NCBI GenBank assembly: GCA_021739645.1
Contig: JAIPBL010000023.1
Coordinates: forward strand, 1 to 64,000
DNA: 64,000 nucleotides
Direction: 5' to 3'
DNA from: Saprospiraceae bacterium
GTDB lineage: Bacteria > Bacteroidota > Bacteroidia > Chitinophagales > Saprospiraceae
Under the pieces are notes generated by a model, which did not search any database, was not told the origin of the DNA, and was given only the letters and a program-made list of their open reading frames with translations. The translations under genes and the position numbers were made by a program. Below, in pieces: positions 1-59,518 of the stretch. Position 1 is the stretch's first letter; the number at the start of each line of letters is the position of its first letter.

Positions 1-58
1 GGATTGCGGATTGCGGATTCGATGCCTCCCAATCCGCAATCCGCAATCCGAAATCCCA
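1..58. repeat. Heptamer inverted-repeat hairpin, in frame in DUF5682 gene
   Basis: Left arm: GGATTGC twice, then GGATTC (1-20). A short spacer follows, then the right arm, AATCCGC twice, AATCCGA, AATCCCA (31-58). The arms are reverse complements with a 7-base period. It is read through as coding sequence. Confidence 0.8.
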
Positions 59-6056: not shown

Positions 6057-6057
6057 T

Positions 6058-6138
6058 GAGGATTTGAGGATTTGAGGATTCGAGGATTTGGACAGCTCAA
6101 ATCCTCGAATCCTCAAATCTTCGAATCCTCAAATCCTC
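6058..6138. repeat. Octamer inverted-repeat hairpin between OM barrel gene and rodA
   Basis: Left arm GAGGATTT in four near-copies. After the spacer GGACAG, the right arm has AAATCCTC / GAATCCTC in five near-copies. The period is 8. It starts right after the barrel stop codon and ends 6 bases before the rodA ATG, so the rodA initiation region lies at the foot of a strong potential hairpin. Confidence 0.85.
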
Positions 6139-6144
6139 ACCCTC

Positions 6145-7536
6145 ATGGCTTCACGTAGCAAACAGCAAATTGATTGGATCATCCTCTCCATCTATCTGGC
6201 GCTGGTATTTATCGGCTGGACCATGATTTACACGGTGGGCTACGGGAAGGGCTATGAGGGCAATTTTTTTGAGTTCCTTAAAAACCCAGTCGGCAAGCAG
6301 CTCATCTGGGTGGTAATGGCATTGGTGGTGATGTTTCTGGCGTATTTGATTGATGGCAAATTTTGGCGAACATTTGCCAATATCATCTACATCGCCTGCA
6401 TGGTGCTACTGGGTTTGGTGCTGGTGCTTGGCAAGGAAATCAACGGAGCAACAGCTTGGTTCGACTTCGGGGGAGGGGTAACAATTCAGCCATCAGAATT
6501 TGCAAAGTTCGGCACCATCATCGCACTGGCCAGTTATTTGGGCGCTTACGCAAACAATCTCAAATCCCTCAAATCCCAGCTTTACGCATTTTCCTTTTTC
6601 TTGGTGCCAATGGCCTTGTTGCTACTCCAACCCGACGCAGGTTCAGCACTGGTGTTCCTTTCGCTGCAACTGGTATTGTTCCGGGAAGGGCTTCCAGGTA
6701 TTATCTTGGCGGTAGAAGTTTGTGCGGGCGCTGTGCTAGTGGCAGGGCTTGTAACACCACCCGTGCAATTGATAATGGTACTTGCAGCCATTGGTGTATT
6801 TGTTCTGGTGTGGAACACCAAGAAACGGCCTTATTGGTTTTCCGCCTTCGTTATTTTGGCGACAGCAGGCATCATTGGTGTTCAATACGATGAGGCTATG
6901 CTAGTATTGGCGGGGGCATTGTGCATCCTTTTCGGCCTGGGCATTTACCAATGGCTGAAGAAAAACCGTCGCCAAGCTACACTTGTGCTCGGAGTGTTCA
7001 TCATTGCCAGCGCACTTGGCTCGGTAGCCAATATTGGCTTCAACACTTTGCCACGTCACCAGCAAGAGCGCATCCTCGTTTGGCTAAAGCCCGCCGAAGC
7101 CGACCCCCAGGGCGCCGCCTACAACCTCAACCACTCAAAAATGGCCATTGCTTCTGGTGGCCTCACGGGCAAGGGATTCTTGGAGGGAACCTTCACCCAG
7201 GGGAATTTTGTGCCGGAGCAAACCACCGACTTCATCTTTTGCGCCGTTGGCGAGGAGCAGGGGTTTATCGGGGTCATTTTCATCATCTCCCTTTATATCG
7301 GCCTGATGATGCGCATCGTTTTCCTGGCAGAGCGGCAGCGTACCGACTTCAACCGGCTTTATGCCTATGGCGTGGCCAGTGTGCTGTTCCTGCACTTCTT
7401 CATCAATATCGGCATGACAATGGGTCTGATGCCCATTATTGGCATTCCGTTGCCCTTCCTCAGCAAGGGCGGCTCCAGCCTCCTTGCCTTTTCCATCATG
7501 ATTGGTGTGCTGCTGAAATTGGATGCAGAAAAATAG
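6145..7536 (+). CDS. rodA: Rod shape-determining protein RodA (SEDS glycosyltransferase)
   Basis: About 463 residues from the ATG at 6145. A longer frame from 6088 would translate the octamer repeat and is rejected. Multiple membrane segments are present, plus the SEDS signatures 'GGGVTIQPSEFAKFG', 'NFVPEQTTDFIFCAVGEEQGFIG' and the C-terminal 'GIPLPFLSKGGSSLL'. RodA polymerises lipid II glycan strands in the elongasome together with a class B PBP in the inner membrane. The hydrophobic insert in the middle ('GIIGVQYDEAMLVLAG') is longer than in E. coli RodA, giving extra predicted membrane segments, which is common in Bacteroidota. A tandem CTCAAATCC octamer (about 6558-6578) is read in frame as 'LKSLKS'. 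Its mre and PBP2 partners are not in the window. Confidence 0.93.
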   Translation: MASRSKQQIDWIILSIYLALVFIGWTMIYTVGYGKGYEGNFFEFLKNPVGKQLIWVVMALVVMFLAYLIDGKFWRTFANIIYIACMVLLGLVLVLGKEINGATAWFDFGGGVTIQPSEFAKFGTIIALASYLGAYANNLKSLKSQLYAFSFFLVPMALLLLQPDAGSALVFLSLQLVLFREGLPGIILAVEVCAGAVLVAGLVTPPVQLIMVLAAIGVFVLVWNTKKRPYWFSAFVILATAGIIGVQYDEAMLVLAGALCILFGLGIYQWLKKNRRQATLVLGVFIIASALGSVANIGFNTLPRHQQERILVWLKPAEADPQGAAYNLNHSKMAIASGGLTGKGFLEGTFTQGNFVPEQTTDFIFCAVGEEQGFIGVIFIISLYIGLMMRIVFLAERQRTDFNRLYAYGVASVLFLHFFINIGMTMGLMPIIGIPLPFLSKGGSSLLAFSIMIGVLLKLDAEK

Positions 7537-8088
7537 GGGATTTCAGGTTTCAGAGGGGTTTCAGGTTTAAGGGTCGCCCAGTTGGGAAGTTCAGGGTTCG
7601 GGTTCATGAACAAGTGGGTCATTTGTACTTTATGCCTTTCATTTCACATTCTTTGAGGTATTTTATCAGGCCAAAATCTGCTTTGCTAACTCTTTCTGCA
7701 AGGTTGAAAAGTTCCTGAAATTCTTCTTTCGTAACATGCCCAACATCTAGTGCTCGATACGCTTGGGAACGAACTTCACCTACGGAACCCTTGGAAATGC
7801 TGATAAAATTGATAAACTCTTTTGTGCCATCCCGTTCGTACCCCTCAGCAATATTGTCCATCGAAGAACCAGCTGCATCTCGAATTTGGTTTCTAAAACC
7901 AAAGTCTTTCGCAAACTCACCCTTGCTGGTAACTTTATAAACGACTTTGCAAAGTTCCCGAGCCAGTTGCCATGCTTCAATGTCTTCAAACCGTTTGAAT
8001 GTAGCCATAGTATCACTTATGTTTGGATACCCACTGCACTTCCCTTGGGCCTCCCTTAAACCTTAAACCTATTTGAAACCTGAAACCG
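7537..8088. mobile_element. Inverted-repeat-bounded element enclosing a four-helix-bundle gene
   Basis: The left arm begins with the base after the rodA stop (7537-7596) and the right arm ends just before the peptidase stop codon (8030-8088). The right arm, reverse-complemented, aligns with the left over almost 60 bases: TTTCAGGTTTCA, then GGTTTAAGG(G), then GCCCA, GGGAAGT and CAG, with a few mismatches and short gaps. The inner parts are not simple repeats, so the match is more than shared low complexity. The only gene inside is the four-helix-bundle protein (7619-8008, minus). The architecture (stem arms with this gene family in the loop) parallels 23S rRNA intervening sequences, but there is no rRNA gene here. 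Mobility is inferred. Confidence 0.6.
7619..8008 (-). CDS. Four helix bundle protein (23S rRNA intervening-sequence family)
   Basis: A 129-residue protein of the TIGR02436/S23 type. Landmarks: 'FEDIEAWQLARELCKVVY', 'FGFRNQIRDAAGSSMDNIAEGYERDGTK' (split here; the core is 'SSMDNIAEGYER') and 'GEVRSQAYRALDVGHV'. The family fold is a four-helix bundle that forms pentamers. Members are encoded within intervening sequences of 23S rRNA in Leptospira and Coxiella and are related to the Avd accessory protein of diversity-generating retroelements (established knowledge). The biochemical role is unknown; nucleic-acid binding is suspected. No reverse transcriptase or rRNA is present here. The gene sits alone, antisense to rodA and co-directional with the peptidase gene, inside a pair of almost 60-bp inverted repeats, which suggests that the gene and the repeats form one element. 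Confidence 0.9.
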   Translation of the reverse strand: MATFKRFEDIEAWQLARELCKVVYKVTSKGEFAKDFGFRNQIRDAAGSSMDNIAEGYERDGTKEFINFISISKGSVGEVRSQAYRALDVGHVTKEEFQELFNLAERVSKADFGLIKYLKECEMKGIKYK

Positions 8089-8089
8089 T

Positions 8090-10738
8090 TTACGGCTTCG
8101 GCGCCGGATCCGGAAACGAGGCATACATATTCGTCACCCGGTCGTCCTTTTCCCAGGCTTTGATACTGTCAATGATTTTCACAAGTTCGGCGTCCTTGGC
8201 TTTCATATCGGCCAGTTTGGTGGCGTCGCTTTCCGATTCGATTTTTCCTGCCACGGTAGCGTGGAGTTCGTTGATGCTTTTGGTAACCATGAATCGCATC
8301 CAAAACATATTGGCTTCGCTCATCGCAATGCTTTTGATATTGTTGGCAGTGCGCAGCATGGCGGCGGCATCCCCATTTTGGGCAAGTTTGACATAGTTTT
8401 GAACAAAGCCGACTTTGTTGAAGCCGGTCACTTTGTTGAATTTTTCTTCAAAAAAACCAAGTCGCTGCGGGTCGCCAGCTTCGTTGTACAGGCCTGCCAG
8501 AGCGAGGATGATGCCTTCATCGTCGTCTTTTTCCAGCTTCTTGGCGGTGGCCAATGCAGCCTCTTTGTCCAGTGCGAGCAGGGTTTCGAGTGCTGCCGAC
8601 ACCACCTTGATGGCCGGGTCGTTTTCCACGGCACGGGCGGCCAGCGGCGCCCATTTTTTATCTTCTGTGCCAGCCAACTTGCGGATGGCCGACTCCCGCA
8701 CATCGGAGTTCGGGTCTTTTTCCGCCAGCTTCGCAATTTGCGCGGTGTTCTTGTCATCCAGTACTTCATTCTCGATGGCAAAGAGGCGGAACAGCCAGAA
8801 CTTGTCGTTCAGTGCTTTCTTCACCACCGCTTTTGCTTCTGGCGTGTCGCTGTCCACAATTTGCCCCAGTGCCTTGATGCGGTGCACAAAGTTGGGCGCA
8901 TTTTCATACTGAAAAATGTACTCGTCCAAGCTTTTTTCGTCGTTGATATCAGCCAGCAAAACACCGTCACCATCAAATACGATGAGGTCTGGGTCTGTGT
9001 CGGAAGGAATCCGGAAGGTCTGCGTGCGCTGGTCAATCTGCACGTTTTGGCGTGTCTTCTTGCCATCGGCATAAACATCAATGGCGACTGGCAGCACGAA
9101 CACACCGGGCATTTCCTTGGCATCCTGCGTTTGTTCCACCATCACGATGGCCTCTTTGGTCTCGTCGTCATAGTCGTACTCTACATTCAGGGTTGGTTGG
9201 CCTTTATCAAAAAACCATTGGTTGAAAAACCAGTTGAGGTCTTCGCCAGTCACGTCCTCGAAGGCGAGGCGCAGCTCATCGGCCTCCACTTCCGTCAGGG
9301 CATTTCTCTTCAAATACGTTTGCAGAGCAGTAAAAAAAGCATCGTCGCCCACGTAGTTACGGAGCATGTGGAGTATCAGGCCGCCCTTGTTATAACTGTG
9401 TGGGTCGAACATGTCCTCTTTGTTGGCGTAGCCAAAATCAATGAGTGGGTGGATGCCCTGTGCCGCTGACTGCATGTAGCCGTTCAACTCTTGAAGACGG
9501 TGAAAGTCGGCCTCGTCCTTGCCGTGTTTTTGCTCCATCCATAGGTACTCGGAGTAGTTGGCGAAGCCCTCGTTCAGCGTGAGGTTCGACCAGCTTTCGC
9601 AGGTCACGTAGTCGCCAAACCAATGATGGAACATCTCGTGCGCAACGATGGACTCGTTCTGGCGGTTGTCAATCAGCTCCCGGGCTGTGCCCTGCATGAA
9701 TTCACCGAAAACAACTGCAGTCGTATTTTCCATGGCGCCGCTCACGTAATCCCTGACCACCACTTGCGAGAATTTTTGCCAAGGGTAGCTCACACCCAAT
9801 TTATCCGAAAAAAACTGGAGCATCTCCGGCGTGTAGGGGAAGATATCACGGGCATATTTTTCAAATTTCGGCTCCACGTAGTAGTCCACGGACTTTCCGT
9901 TCCAAGTGTCTTTCACCACAGCGAACTCGCCCACGGCGATCATTACAAGGTAAGGCGCATGAGGCATGTCCATTTTCCAGCTGTCAGTGCGGGTGCCGTC
10001 GGTGTTTTTTTTCGAGGAAACGAGGATGCCGTTCGAGAGCGTCTTGAAGCGGTCTTCAACAGTGAGCGTGATTTCATCGGTGGCCCGTTCGTTGGGTTTG
10101 TCAATGGTAGGGAACCAGCGGGAGTTGTTCTCGGTCTCACCCTGCGTCCATATTTGTTGGGGCTTGTCGCCATCCTCGCCACGTGGGTTGATAAAAAACA
10201 GGCCTTTGTCAGAAGTGATAGCGGCACTGCCGCCAGAGGCAGCAGGTGTGGCCGTGTAGTCAATGAAAAGCTTGTACTCCTGGTTCCGGTTGTAGGTTTT
10301 GCCGAGGTGGATAGTCACCTTGCTACTGTCGTAGTCGTACTTGAGCTGCTCGTTGCTGCCCTCGAAATTAATTTTGTGAAACTGGAAGCCTTTAGCATCG
10401 AGCACCACCTTGTCGGTTGGATAAAAATAGGGCTTCAAAGTGAGCGTGGCTTTTCCAATTACTTGCTCCTTGGTCCAGTCGAAGTGCAGGTCGAGCTTTG
10501 TGTGAAGCAGATCACTTTCCCGCTTGGCACTGGGGTTGTAGGTAGGCAGGATGAGGTCTGCAGACGAGTCCATTCCTTCCAAGGAAATGGGGTCGCCTTC
10601 GTACTCCGATGGAGCGGTGACGGTGAGGGTGTCAAGGTCAACGTACTCGGTTTCCGGCAGCATGATGGCCGAATATTTCTTTGGCGAACAGCTCCAAAGC
10701 AGGAATATCGCCAGCAACAAGAACAAGGATTTTTTCAT
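8090..10738 (-). CDS. M1 family aminopeptidase, lipoprotein
   Basis: About 882 residues from the ATG at 10738, which gives a lipoprotein signal ('LLAIFLLWSCSPKK', lipobox cysteine near residue 17). A further 15 upstream codons would spoil the signal. The M1 (gluzincin) hallmarks are the exopeptidase motif 'GAMENTT' near residue 333 and the zinc site 'HEMFHHWFGDYV...NEGFANY' around 362-385 (HExxH plus E). The first 200 residues form the usual N-terminal beta domain. The C-terminal 300 residues hold HEAT-like helices ('AKLAEKDPNSDVRESAIRKLAG'). By family it removes N-terminal residues from peptides, here probably in the periplasm or at the outer-membrane inner face. The stop codon directly abuts the inverted-repeat element. 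Confidence 0.93.
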   Translation of the reverse strand: MKKSLFLLLAIFLLWSCSPKKYSAIMLPETEYVDLDTLTVTAPSEYEGDPISLEGMDSSADLILPTYNPSAKRESDLLHTKLDLHFDWTKEQVIGKATLTLKPYFYPTDKVVLDAKGFQFHKINFEGSNEQLKYDYDSSKVTIHLGKTYNRNQEYKLFIDYTATPAASGGSAAITSDKGLFFINPRGEDGDKPQQIWTQGETENNSRWFPTIDKPNERATDEITLTVEDRFKTLSNGILVSSKKNTDGTRTDSWKMDMPHAPYLVMIAVGEFAVVKDTWNGKSVDYYVEPKFEKYARDIFPYTPEMLQFFSDKLGVSYPWQKFSQVVVRDYVSGAMENTTAVVFGEFMQGTARELIDNRQNESIVAHEMFHHWFGDYVTCESWSNLTLNEGFANYSEYLWMEQKHGKDEADFHRLQELNGYMQSAAQGIHPLIDFGYANKEDMFDPHSYNKGGLILHMLRNYVGDDAFFTALQTYLKRNALTEVEADELRLAFEDVTGEDLNWFFNQWFFDKGQPTLNVEYDYDDETKEAIVMVEQTQDAKEMPGVFVLPVAIDVYADGKKTRQNVQIDQRTQTFRIPSDTDPDLIVFDGDGVLLADINDEKSLDEYIFQYENAPNFVHRIKALGQIVDSDTPEAKAVVKKALNDKFWLFRLFAIENEVLDDKNTAQIAKLAEKDPNSDVRESAIRKLAGTEDKKWAPLAARAVENDPAIKVVSAALETLLALDKEAALATAKKLEKDDDEGIILALAGLYNEAGDPQRLGFFEEKFNKVTGFNKVGFVQNYVKLAQNGDAAAMLRTANNIKSIAMSEANMFWMRFMVTKSINELHATVAGKIESESDATKLADMKAKDAELVKIIDSIKAWEKDDRVTNMYASFPDPAPKP

Positions 10739-47908: not shown

Positions 47909-48187
47909 TAGTAGGTAGTCAAGTGATTTATGACAAGTTGATGGAAGTTCAATTGAATCTATACCACGAAAAGTTGCTGCCCAACTTGGCAATATCTGCG
48001 CTGCCGAAGTGGACTTCGGCAGTACGGTCGGCATTGGCACCTGCTGGCCGTACCACCGAAGTCCACTTCGGTGCTTTTCTGTTTGCTAGCTTGGAGGCAT
48101 CAACCTTCCCTAGCTTCGCCAGATAAAAATCGAGCTTTGCTCTTTGCAGAAAATCCAACTTGTCAAAATTGAGTTGACTACCTACTT
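47909..48187. repeat. Nested foldback element, about 280 bp
   Basis: Outer arms: GTAGGTAGTCAA ... TGACAAGTTG (47911-47940), with its reverse complement at 48158-48187. Inner arms: CCGAAGTGGACTTCGG + GTACGG (48004-48027 and 48048-48071, 22 of 24 paired). Most of the 407-bp gap between the DUF481 gene and the next gene is this element. No credible gene is inside. Its right end lies next to the stop codon of the neighbouring gene. Confidence 0.75.
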
Positions 48188-56683: not shown

Positions 56684-59518
56684 GTGAAACTCATCTTCGG
56701 TCTCCAACTCGACAACCCATCCCTCCCCCGGCCCGATACCGAGGCGGGTGTCCACTACGTCGGCCCAAAGGGTTTGCTGGCGCTGTTTGAAACCTGGCAC
56801 GGCCTCGGCGGGCATCCCAACGACATCGACTACCTCCGCACCGAGCAGTACCGACAGGCGTTGCTCATTCATTTAGCGGATGCTGCGGCTCCGGTGTTTT
56901 ACCAAAAATCCTTCGAAGCAGACCCCTTCACCACCGCTGCCGACCTCTGTTCCCGCCGTGACGAACTGTTGCTGGCAGGTTGGGATTTTCAAAAAAAGAC
57001 CGATACCCCGCCCCGCCTTGCTACCATCGCCGAAATCGAAGCAATTTTTCAAACCGACCCTGAAGTTCACCACCTCGACCCCGGCTTCGCTGACCGTTTC
57101 GATGCCGTGCTGCGGGCACTCAATGTCCACTCGACCAATTTATCCGAGATTTGGGTAAACGAGCCGCTCGACCTGATGCCCCAGCATTTTCAGCGGTTTT
57201 TTGAAAAATTGGCAGAAACAGCAGCCCTCGAAATCCAGCAACTCCCCCTGCCCGAACTGCCCACCGAGGCTACGACTGACCTCCAAAAATTCCAAACCCG
57301 CTTCTCCGCCGCCCCGACCAAAACCAAGGAAACACTCCAAAACGACGGTTCCCTGCTCCTGCTCCAAGCCCGCCGCTCCAGCGAGGCAGCAGCCTGGGTG
57401 GCGCAGTTGGTGAGGGTGAAATTGGGAATTGGGAAATCGAAGATTCACGCTAGTAAATGGGGGAATTGGGGAATTGGGGGCGAACCCATTCCCCAATTTC
57501 CCCATTCCCCAATTCCCCAATTCCCAACCTTCCTAATTCCCGAAAAATCCAGAACCCTCGACATGGCCCTTATCCAAGAGGGGCAGCCGAGCCTCGGCAT
57601 CCAGAGCACGTCACTGGCCAGGCCAACTTTACAGGTGCTGAAATTGGTGACGGCCTTCCTCTGGGAGCCCGTGAACCCTTTCCATATCCTCGAATTTGTG
57701 TCGCTGGCCGTGAAGCCGCTGGCCGACGACTTGGCCACGCTCATCGCCAACCAAGTGGCCGCAACGCCGGGCCTGCAGGGCGACGGCTGGTACGCCATGA
57801 TTAACCGATACTTCGAGGAACTCGCTGAAAACGAGCCACTTACGACGGTGAACGAACAGCGCAAGCAGTATAATTTCTGGTTCGAGCGGCGGCGCTACGA
57901 CATGGGAAGCAAGGTGCCGAAAGTCGAGGTGACAGCCATTTTCGACTATCTCCGGCAATGGGCGGTGCAGGCTTTTGAAGATGGGGGTGGACGAAACCAC
58001 TCGCTCATCGTGCTGAGCCAACAGGCCCGGCGGGTGTCAGAACTGTTGAACGCCCTGCCTGAACAAGAACTGACGCACCTCGAACTGGAGCGCATCGTCC
58101 GCACGATTTACGAGCCGTCGCCCGTGGTGCTGCAACCGCAAGAGGCGGGAAGCCTGCCCTACGTCCAGCATCCCGGAGCGTTCACCGGGGCGGTGGGCGA
58201 GGTGTGGTGGTGGAACTTCGTGCAGCAGGAGCAGCCGCATTTTTTCTCCAAATGGTCAAAAAGCGAGCGGGCTTGGCTGGCGCAAATGGGCGTACTGCCC
58301 GACACGCCGGAGCAGGAAAACGCCCGCCAACTCTGGCAACAGAGCCGCCCGGTGCTGGCTGCCACCGACCGCTTGGTACTGGTGCTGCCAGAATCGGTGG
58401 ACGGAACAGCTGCGAACCCACACCCGCTTTTCGGCGATTTGCAGGCGGCATTTTCCAACCTCGAAGCCATCACGCAGCAGGTGGGCGGCACAGCACAGGC
58501 GTTTGCGAAGCATTTTACCCTACCAACTTACGAACTGGTGGAACTGCGCCAACTGGGCAGGCCAGCACCGTTTTTGAAGATAAAAACCCGAGGCACCATG
58601 CAGCGGGAGCGGGAGTCGCTGACTAGTTTGGAGGCGCTTTTTTACTACCCGTACCAATGGTTTTTTAAGTACAAAATCCGGCTGAACAAGTCGAGCATCC
58701 TCAGCGTAGTGCCCGACAACACGCTGATGGGCAACTTGGCGCACCGGATTTTTGAGAAATTGCTGAAAGAAGACATCCACGCGATGAGCAAGGCCGAAGT
58801 GGAAAGCCGGGTGGAACAGGAGAGTCGCCGCCTGCTGGTGCGGGAAGGTGCGGTGCTGCTGATGTACGGCAGGGAACCAGACCGGGTGGCGTTTGTGAAC
58901 AAACTGAAATTTGCAGCATGGAGCCTCGTGACGCACATCCGGGACAACGGCTGGCGGGTGCTGGGCACGGAACAGCAGTTGGACGGCAGGTTTCCGCACG
59001 ACGACGAGTCCAGCCCGGAAGTCAGGGGCATCGCCGACTTGGTGCTGGAGCGGACAGACCCCAATGGGACAAGCGAATTGGCCGTGGTGGACATCAAGTG
59101 GCGGGGCAGCGGCTGGCGGGAGTCGGTCATCCGCAATGGCGAAGACCTGCAATTGGTGTTGTACGCCCGGCTTGTTTCACCGGAAAATGAATGGGCGCAC
59201 ACGGCCTATTTTATCGTGGAAAACGGCAAGCTGCTGGCTCGAAATTCCCGGGCGTTTCAAAATATCTCCCCCATCTCTCCGATGGACGACCACCGGGAGG
59301 TCAACGAGGGCATTCTTGCCCAAATGCACGCTACCTGGCAATGGCGAATGGCCCAGTTGTCCGAGGGCCTAATCGAAGTGCGATGCCGCCAAACCCTTGC
59401 CGCTATTGAGGGTACCTACGGCGAAGACCACGGGGCAGCAATGAGCAACCTGCTGGAAATGAAAGGCGAGGACGCCAAATACGACGATTACCGGGTGCTG
59501 ATAAATTTGATTGATTGA
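56684..59518 (+). CDS. PD-(D/E)XK nuclease family protein (AddB/RexB-like)
   Basis: About 944 residues from the GTG at 56684 ('VKLIFGLQLDNPSLPRP' read with Met). An ATG at 56576 would overlap the previous gene by 60 bases and lacks family character. The central part has the inactive helicase-like plan of AddB-type proteins. The C-terminal nuclease has 'TSLEALFYYPYQWFFKYKIRL', 'NTLMGNLAHRIFEKLL' (H motif), then 'VRGIADLVLERTD' and 'ELAVVDIKWRGSG' (the D and D-x-K catalytic pair), and 'NGEDLQLVLYARLV' (the Q/Y motif). By family it processes DNA ends for recombination with a UvrD/RecB-like partner, but no helicase gene is adjacent. Odd: an inverted repeat adds about 40 residues at 57420-57541 ('GNWGIGGEPIPQFPHSPIP'), in frame. 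Confidence 0.85.
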   Translation: MKLIFGLQLDNPSLPRPDTEAGVHYVGPKGLLALFETWHGLGGHPNDIDYLRTEQYRQALLIHLADAAAPVFYQKSFEADPFTTAADLCSRRDELLLAGWDFQKKTDTPPRLATIAEIEAIFQTDPEVHHLDPGFADRFDAVLRALNVHSTNLSEIWVNEPLDLMPQHFQRFFEKLAETAALEIQQLPLPELPTEATTDLQKFQTRFSAAPTKTKETLQNDGSLLLLQARRSSEAAAWVAQLVRVKLGIGKSKIHASKWGNWGIGGEPIPQFPHSPIPQFPTFLIPEKSRTLDMALIQEGQPSLGIQSTSLARPTLQVLKLVTAFLWEPVNPFHILEFVSLAVKPLADDLATLIANQVAATPGLQGDGWYAMINRYFEELAENEPLTTVNEQRKQYNFWFERRRYDMGSKVPKVEVTAIFDYLRQWAVQAFEDGGGRNHSLIVLSQQARRVSELLNALPEQELTHLELERIVRTIYEPSPVVLQPQEAGSLPYVQHPGAFTGAVGEVWWWNFVQQEQPHFFSKWSKSERAWLAQMGVLPDTPEQENARQLWQQSRPVLAATDRLVLVLPESVDGTAANPHPLFGDLQAAFSNLEAITQQVGGTAQAFAKHFTLPTYELVELRQLGRPAPFLKIKTRGTMQRERESLTSLEALFYYPYQWFFKYKIRLNKSSILSVVPDNTLMGNLAHRIFEKLLKEDIHAMSKAEVESRVEQESRRLLVREGAVLLMYGREPDRVAFVNKLKFAAWSLVTHIRDNGWRVLGTEQQLDGRFPHDDESSPEVRGIADLVLERTDPNGTSELAVVDIKWRGSGWRESVIRNGEDLQLVLYARLVSPENEWAHTAYFIVENGKLLARNSRAFQNISPISPMDDHREVNEGILAQMHATWQWRMAQLSEGLIEVRCRQTLAAIEGTYGEDHGAAMSNLLEMKGEDAKYDDYRVLINLID
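57420..57541. repeat. Octamer hairpin inserted in frame in the AddB-like gene
   Basis: Left arm: GGGAATT / GGGGAATT units (57420-57480). Right arm: CCCCAATT / CCCCATT units (57484-57541). The arms are reverse complements with a 7-8-base period and no stop codon in the coding frame. The encoded residues are low complexity (Pro, Gly, Trp, Ile). Confidence 0.9.

Follow-up and report, generated by a model that had tools for sequence, protein, structure and literature searches.

A PF05635 four-helix-bundle gene between inverted arms of a short repeat word in a Saprospiraceae bacterium, a probable gene-bearing form within a family of short hairpin elements

In a Saprospiraceae genome, a gene for a 129-aa four-helix-bundle protein of the PF05635 family lies in the loop of an inverted repeat between rodA and a peptidase gene, and this locus probably belongs, as a gene-bearing copy, to a family of short hairpin elements. 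It was found in a window of 64,000 nucleotides, by which we mean the whole stretch of DNA that was analysed. The gene and its repeats would form a partnership like that of REPINs and RAYTs in which no RAYT takes part; cognate recognition of the repeats and their spread are putative components of it. A RAYT is a Y1 transposase gene flanked by REP repeats, and its protein binds and cuts the repeat and promotes the spread of REPINs. At the level of sequence, protein subfamily and repeat word are seen to be associated, and the recurrence of the armed gene and its word across relatives suggests that such small hairpin elements are mobile and form a widespread family. The window element has the following parts:

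7541..7594, + strand: left arm (downstream arm in the orientation of the gene), with GTTTCAG and GTTTAAG words and a unique inner stem, from alignment and fold
7619..8008, - strand: gene for the 129-aa four-helix bundle, PF05635 / TIGR02436, from the ORF, profile matches, AlphaFold2 and the best Foldseek match, 2gsc
8034..8085, + strand: right arm (upstream arm in the orientation of the gene), an inverted copy of the left arm, from alignment and fold

The first-pass annotation had described inverted arms of almost 60 bases that include unique inner sequence and fit exactly between the stop codons of rodA and the peptidase, and both points were borne out. The arm cores (7541-7580 and 8046-8085) are 85% complementary over 40 nt, and gapped alignment lengthens the arms to 7541-7594 and 8034-8085 (54 and 52 nt), which takes in the inner part quoted in that annotation. 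With the end of the rodA ORF at 7536 and that of the peptidase ORF at 8090, 4 nt are left outside each arm and the arms take up the space between the two stop codons. As RNA, the element is predicted to fold at -166.2 kcal/mol, compared to -131.6 +/- 6.2 for shuffled sequences (z -5.55), and the flanking inverted-repeat score of the gene is 57. Read by eye, the outer arms consist of the 7-nt words GTTTCAG and GTTTAAG, and the inner part is a unique stem. A formal periodicity test of the window arms did not pick the 7-nt word (best values 0.49 at 11 nt and 0.39 at 8 nt); the word is clear in relatives of these arms.

The protein had been placed in the family known from intervening sequences (IVS) of rRNA, and here too the annotation holds: the ORF matches PF05635 with an E-value of 3.3e-30 and 104.9 bits, against a cut-off of 33.8, and TIGR02436 with 97 bits, against one of 24. 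Its AlphaFold2 model is a helical bundle with a mean pLDDT of 93.5, and the nearest solved structures found by Foldseek are 2gsc, the best match, and 2rld. The 2gsc protein is a homopentamer of four-helix bundles, as described in passages of PMC4990558. PF05635 is the only match in the loop, which at 439 nt cannot accommodate a second gene of RAYT size. An Rfam search of the window gave no match, hence no rRNA family is present in it. Beside the window copy, no cas gene was noted among the ORFs of the first 16 kb, taken without database annotation.

Gene and arms had been proposed to form a single element, and this is supported by the occurrence of related genes with similar arms at unrelated positions and by a clean empty site for another member of the family. 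The genome (6.16 Mb in 147 contigs) has 15 PF05635 matches that make up 14 loci, and a comparison of repeat frequencies suggested in the first-pass annotation found flanking inverted repeats with a score of at least 34 at 13/14 of these loci, versus 3/239 other genes of 90-200 aa from about 1.12 Mb of the same genome; the cut-off of 34 was chosen after the lowest score among the loci of this genome had been seen. Chance co-occurrence of gene and arms is rejected by the control genes. Counting by row gives 15/16, a figure in which split genes enter twice. The locus L015 scores 21 with ORF-based flanks, under the cut-off because its ORF runs into the arm, and 56 with match-based flanks. L008 just passes with arms of only 17 nt, and L013 (score 53) is counted among the 13/14 but has palindromic rather than tandem repeats. 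Some copies are broken, with stops inside L004 and L010 and a gene split between L008 and L014.

Outside this genome, 45 of 68 fetched PF05635 loci score at least 34 (40/53 within the genus); these were chosen from listed matches, many of them strong and most from eight genus genomes, and do not constitute a random sample. Rows with flanks under 150 nt were dropped (L030, L039, L040, L129), as was the short L347. In 58 of the 63 armed loci the upstream arm matches itself best at a period of 7 or 8, and the self-match reaches at least 0.7 in 26/63. Each arm may itself be a full small hairpin, which is seen on at least one side in 23/63 armed loci and on both sides in L004, L013, L112 and L113. 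PF05635 is present in 38/40 relatives and in 232/296 sampled Bacteroidota genomes. Among the 30 top-scoring loci across the phylum, arms of at least 30 are found at 11 and most loci have weak arms, so armed copies are not universal. Several of the genes lie close together on G002:C71, G004:C77 (L133) and G002:C40, at a distance of about 3 kb on G004:C77. Two open frames that span a PF05635 match, one of 549 aa on G002:C40 and one of 526 aa on G004:C77, are possibly fusions.

The word varies by locus and includes GAGTTTT, GATTGCG, GTGATTG, GAGGTAT, GGGATGA, TTAGAC-type words and others. At single loci it was read by eye, most gene-bearing arms being under the threshold of the formal tandem test; this test flagged five long-loop pairs, four of them with a PF05635 gene. 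In 52 pairs of loci with unrelated outer flanks and a protein score ratio of at least 0.5, mean arm similarity is 0.504 against a background of 0.256 (0/5000 permutations). Over all pairs, protein and arm similarity are weakly correlated (rho 0.045, equalled or exceeded in 217/2000 permutations), since the words of distant proteins are unrelated, and the signal is confined to pairs with a protein ratio of about 0.4-0.5 or more. A relation of protein to arm sequence is supported statistically by these comparisons; action of the protein on the stem, which the first-pass annotation had suggested, is putative. Relatives of the window protein in G006 (82%), G003 (77%) and G014 (50%) bear GGTTTCAGG arms, and the G006 and G003 copies have neighbours common to both, unlike those of the window copy. 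Where flanks are related, the arms of orthologous pairs are similar in 8/10 (0.67-1.0) and dissimilar in two (0.33 and 0.26).

The association extends to distant homologues. A scan of named genomes retained 80 window-type homologues, 48-82% identical, under record titles of many phyla that include Bacteroidota, Verrucomicrobia, Desulfobacterales, Planctomycetes, Anaerolineae and Zixibacteria; these are mostly metagenome bins, and single assignments may be wrong. Arms of at least 30 occur at 53 of the 79 scored loci. The word being common to different loci, the cross-locus null for these is high (95th percentile 37), and a GTT-period test was used instead of arm counts. Three or more GTT triplets at 7-nt spacing occur upstream of 46 of the 80 homologues, inverted ones downstream of 48, and both together at 34; the corresponding numbers are 6, 9 and 6 for 80 rows of other subfamilies (some genes in two rows), and 0, 4 and 0 at a distance of 1 kb from 67 homologue loci. 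Fourfold-degenerate sites of the homologues are saturated (0.270 identical to the window gene versus 0.252 expected, at 1803 sites with the two closest homologues excluded). The word has often been kept nonetheless, which implies that it is held by selection or a copying process and not by slow drift.

Hairpins without a gene are the common form in this genome, and those of the window are:

1..49, no strand: gene-less tandem hairpin at the window edge, unit GGATTGC, a word common to the gene-bearing loci L012 and L015 of this genome
2177..2343, no strand: gene-less inverted repeat of the CAGTTGGC family, with the inner sequence AGTTGTTTAGTCAG that is also present in the gene-bearing L001 and L041 (L094 with one change)
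6057..6131, no strand: tandem hairpin without a gene where the rodA ORF starts, loop 7 nt; its unit, GAGGATTT, differs from that of the window gene
57461..57525, no strand: gene-less tandem hairpin, unit GGGAATTG, loop 27 nt

In 1.12 Mb of the genome, 40 gene-less tandem hairpins were found, with a median loop of 16.5 nt and a median arm of 31 nt. Together with the long-loop pairs (n = 45), they have a period of 7 in 23 cases, 8 in 21 and 9 in one; the window arms themselves fail the period test. Non-tandem palindromic repeats at 48004-48071 of the window and at L013 (CCGAAG..CTTCGG and CGCCGAACCCCAGTTCGGCG) represent further types of intergenic hairpin.

Several words of gene-bearing loci recur in these hairpins. 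The exact GGTTTCAGGTTTCAGG is present in 5/5 genomes with a window-type gene at least 50% identical (one a fragment) versus 3/36 without, the identity cut having been set post hoc, as two genomes with 48-49% genes lack GGTTTCAGGTTTCAGG. The genome under study has six exact copies of GGTTTCAGGTTTCAGG, none at the window gene and five in gene-less hairpins; 5/6 of its GGTTTCAGG places are gene-less hairpins, as are 6/14 fetched places of GAGGTATG (20 listed). Across the genus, genomes with the cognate gene have higher counts of GGTTTCAGG (p 0.005) and GAGGTATG (p 0.003) and, with weak support, of GGGATGAG (p 0.041), in tests that count overlapping exact matches, include gene arms where these match and treat related genomes as independent. 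GGGATGAG is plentiful in G011 and G012, which have no close cognate gene, and GGCAGTTGGCAGTTGG was left out, being widespread in the genus with its cognate gene surveyed in only part of the genomes. In G014, an inverted partner was detected in 2/20 stretches, a low estimate that misses the gene-bearing L403 (score 75). The gene-less hairpins of the genome match its own gene arms better than random same-genus sets at thresholds of 0.7 (0/2000) and 0.65 (21/2000) and do not exceed them at 0.6 (272/2000). For the hairpin families AGAGGGTG, ATTGTTG and GAGGATTT, a matching gene arm was not found in the genome.

Sites were also compared between genomes. Six foreign armed loci had both flanks in the sample from this genome, and three of these also have the gene here. 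One of the six is an empty site: G012 has an armed copy, the genome under study has none, and the flanking genes align on both sides. In a reading of the raw sequences, the G012 element has taken the place of the final codons of the upstream gene, whose stop is then provided by the repeat; a MAFFT alignment of the site puts the gap elsewhere. No target-site duplication is evident at this site, the one empty site compared. At the site of L112, G007 has the arrangement hairpin-gene-hairpin and the genome under study just one hairpin, which lacks the gene but agrees in word and inner stem. At the site of L096 the genome under study has a gene-less hairpin of another word. At the orthologous rodA-peptidase site, which the first-pass annotation had singled out for comparison, the sister genome G003 has a gene-less hairpin with unrelated arms, and one of the outcomes named in that annotation as refuting is thereby seen in part. 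The genome under study and G003 differ in word, one with and one without a gene, at three sites (rodA-peptidase, L011 and L096). Further relatives show other hairpins at the peptidase end, or terminator-like palindromes, or nothing obvious. We read the differing hairpins at shared sites as possible replacement at preferred sites, and the G003 hairpin as an apparent case of such turnover, because 8/10 orthologous gene-bearing pairs keep similar arms.

In the interpretation that we favour, an element would consist of two facing arrays of a 7-8-nt word, with the four-helix-bundle gene in the loop of the gene-bearing form and a short loop only in the common gene-less form. The protein, probably a pentameric ring, would recognise its cognate array as RNA or single-stranded DNA, and recognition would promote the spread or upkeep of gene-bearing and gene-less hairpins alike, with strand chemistry provided by host enzymes. 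Insertion near stop codons, with the repeat sometimes giving the stop, would make the element harmless, and RNase III cutting of the stem may contribute to the same end. As in REPIN/RAYT systems, the hairpins are dispersed and intergenic, gene-less copies outnumber genes flanked by the same repeats, and repeat type follows protein type, here with two orthologous exceptions. The differences are that the loop gene is a PF05635 four-helix bundle alone and not a RAYT/Y1 HUH transposase, and that the repeats are tandem 7-8-nt words where REPINs have single REP palindromes.

The main rival is an RNA- or DNA-binding regulator. The protein would bind its repeats where they lie in the 3´ ends of mRNAs, as well as in the 5´ leader of its own gene, and would in this way govern stability, termination or translation; spread of the repeats would have another cause, and the gene would be no mobility factor. 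This fits the location of the gene-less hairpins: of the 32 whose context could be scored, 26 have a stop codon within 31 nt and none is between divergent genes (background 105/633). Stop proximity is not specific to them, since other short hairpins also favour stops (37/61 within 31 nt). The regulator reading is also consistent with a G/T-rich 5´ arm in 38/45 tandem pairs and with the position of one window arm (8034-8085) in the leader of the gene itself. We nevertheless consider a pure regulator unlikely, as gene and arms are found together at unrelated sites, an empty site exists, and the broken copies are expected of selfish elements.

Much less likely still is retro-mobility, in which the protein would act like the Avd protein of diversity-generating retroelements (DGR) and a reverse transcriptase in trans would copy the hairpin RNA. 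The fold is similar: weaker Foldseek matches include Avd (4dwl) and DGR ribonucleoprotein chains (8ub7), with TM 0.70/0.83 and 0.69/0.80 but E-values of 0.1 or more, and homology of Avd with the PF05635 family has also been suggested (passages of PMC10053308). The window locus differs in having inverted repeat arms and no reverse transcriptase, the single RVT_1 match of the genome being on contig C51 beside L013. L013 (C51:41217-42528), a PF05635 gene without tandem arms about 370 bp from this match, is probably the Avd of a diversity-generating retroelement. Dependence on a reverse transcriptase is disfavoured, as 7/14 genus genomes (G002, G003, G005, G008, G011, G012, G013), four of them at least 98% complete, have no RVT_1 match and G003, G008 and G012 among these still carry several armed copies.

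A slightly smaller chance is given to an intervening sequence that escaped from 23S rRNA, its arms being the ancestral rRNA-flanking stem. Protein family and gene-in-loop layout are alike (passages of PMC4990558), both systems having an S23/IVP gene of the PF05635 family in the loop of a long stem with terminal inverted repeats that enclose the ORF. The window element, however, is located outside rRNA, between the rodA and peptidase ORFs, in a window devoid of rRNA families, and its arms belong to subfamily-specific arrays that occur many times per genome and have gene-less relatives. The intervening-sequence-like reading is not supported as the first-pass annotation words it. A more apt description of the arms is that of arrays of a 7-8-nt word, specific to the protein subfamily and present also in hairpins that lack the gene, which makes REP- or STRR-like repeats the closer comparison. 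Simple-sequence expansion with quasipalindrome correction at terminator sites, the gene being there by chance, has an equally slim prospect: repeat hairpins are common in the genome and sister genomes can differ in the word found at a given site, but it is strongly disfavoured by the contrast of PF05635 loci with control genes and by a word that accompanies the protein under record titles of many phyla although synonymous sites are saturated.

Returning to the gene-bearing hairpin element, we tentatively extend it to a wider proposal, which we regard as possible. A widespread class of hairpin elements may have PF05635 proteins to address its repeats, each subfamily reading its own 7-8-nt tandem word, and the class would cover the IVP genes in rRNA stems, the heptamers of cyanobacterial STRRs and the Bacteroidota hairpins. 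Perhaps single-stranded RNA or DNA would wrap around a pentameric ring, each subunit binding one word. TRAP, a ring wrapped by single-stranded nucleic acid, serves as the model for this idea. In CPR bacteria, the family has also been reported from insertions within 16S and 23S rRNA genes (passages of PMC11270868). STRRs are 7-bp tandem intergenic repeats of cyanobacteria that can form hairpins and have no determined function (passages of PMC2670836), a description that may also fit the repeats of the window family; a link between STRRs and PF05635 is absent from the literature passages and listings consulted. On cyanobacterial plasmids, 5/6 PF05635 copies are placed between inverted heptamer arrays (GGGAAAA, AGTAGGG, GGGAACA, GGGTGTA), the six copies being from 19 matching plasmid records:

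L424, L425, L426, L427 and L433: cyanobacterial plasmid copies with heptamer arms

The sixth, L428, has no inverted heptamer arrays around the gene. The copy of a Nostoc edaphicum plasmid sits between two ribonucleotide reductase genes. The resemblance of the heptamer arrays at these copies to STRRs is a lead.

Other reports touch on such repeats or on such genes. TAACTGA heptamers of Beggiatoaceae, Cyanobacteria and a few Bacteroidota are intergenic, occur in overlapping groups and have been proposed as regulator sites; they share with the window family the grouping of intergenic 7-nt repeats and differ in being mostly direct, upstream of start codons and of one word only (passages of PMC4679880, a text in which 'four helix', 'intervening' and '23S' are absent). 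Genes of the same family as the window gene have been reported in cas loci, 18 in number and often with nuclease genes, and flanking repeats are unmentioned in the passages of that source (PMC3936711). A tie of PF05635 to flanking tandem repeats was not found in the titles and abstract openings listed by searches of the open-licence literature.

A second gene family, PF13366 (PDDEXK_3, GxxExxY), may also ride such hairpins. About 1.9 Mb of this genome and G003 together have two PF13366 nuclease genes, both within inverted repeats (scores 148 and 52), and the loci in this genome are:

L047:2612-3014 (contig C80): PF13366 nuclease locus
L064:9764-10323 (contig C93): PF13366 nuclease locus

Among the long-loop repeats of the genome without PF05635, two hold PF13366 nucleases and one consists of two same-family hairpins around an ordinary gene. 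Four plasmid relatives have scores of 181 (Gemmatirosa), 36 (Bernardetia), 24 (Fusobacteria) and 24 (Persicobacter), two of them with hand-set gene ends.

The rule that relates subfamily to word gives a testable partner to both PF05635 proteins and tandem 7-bp intergenic repeats. The cognate site of any member would become predictable from the sequence that flanks it, and natural protein-repeat pairs would be at hand for studies of binding. If true, a single class would explain the IVP genes in rRNA stems, the STRR heptamers of cyanobacteria and the 7-8-nt hairpins of Bacteroidota.
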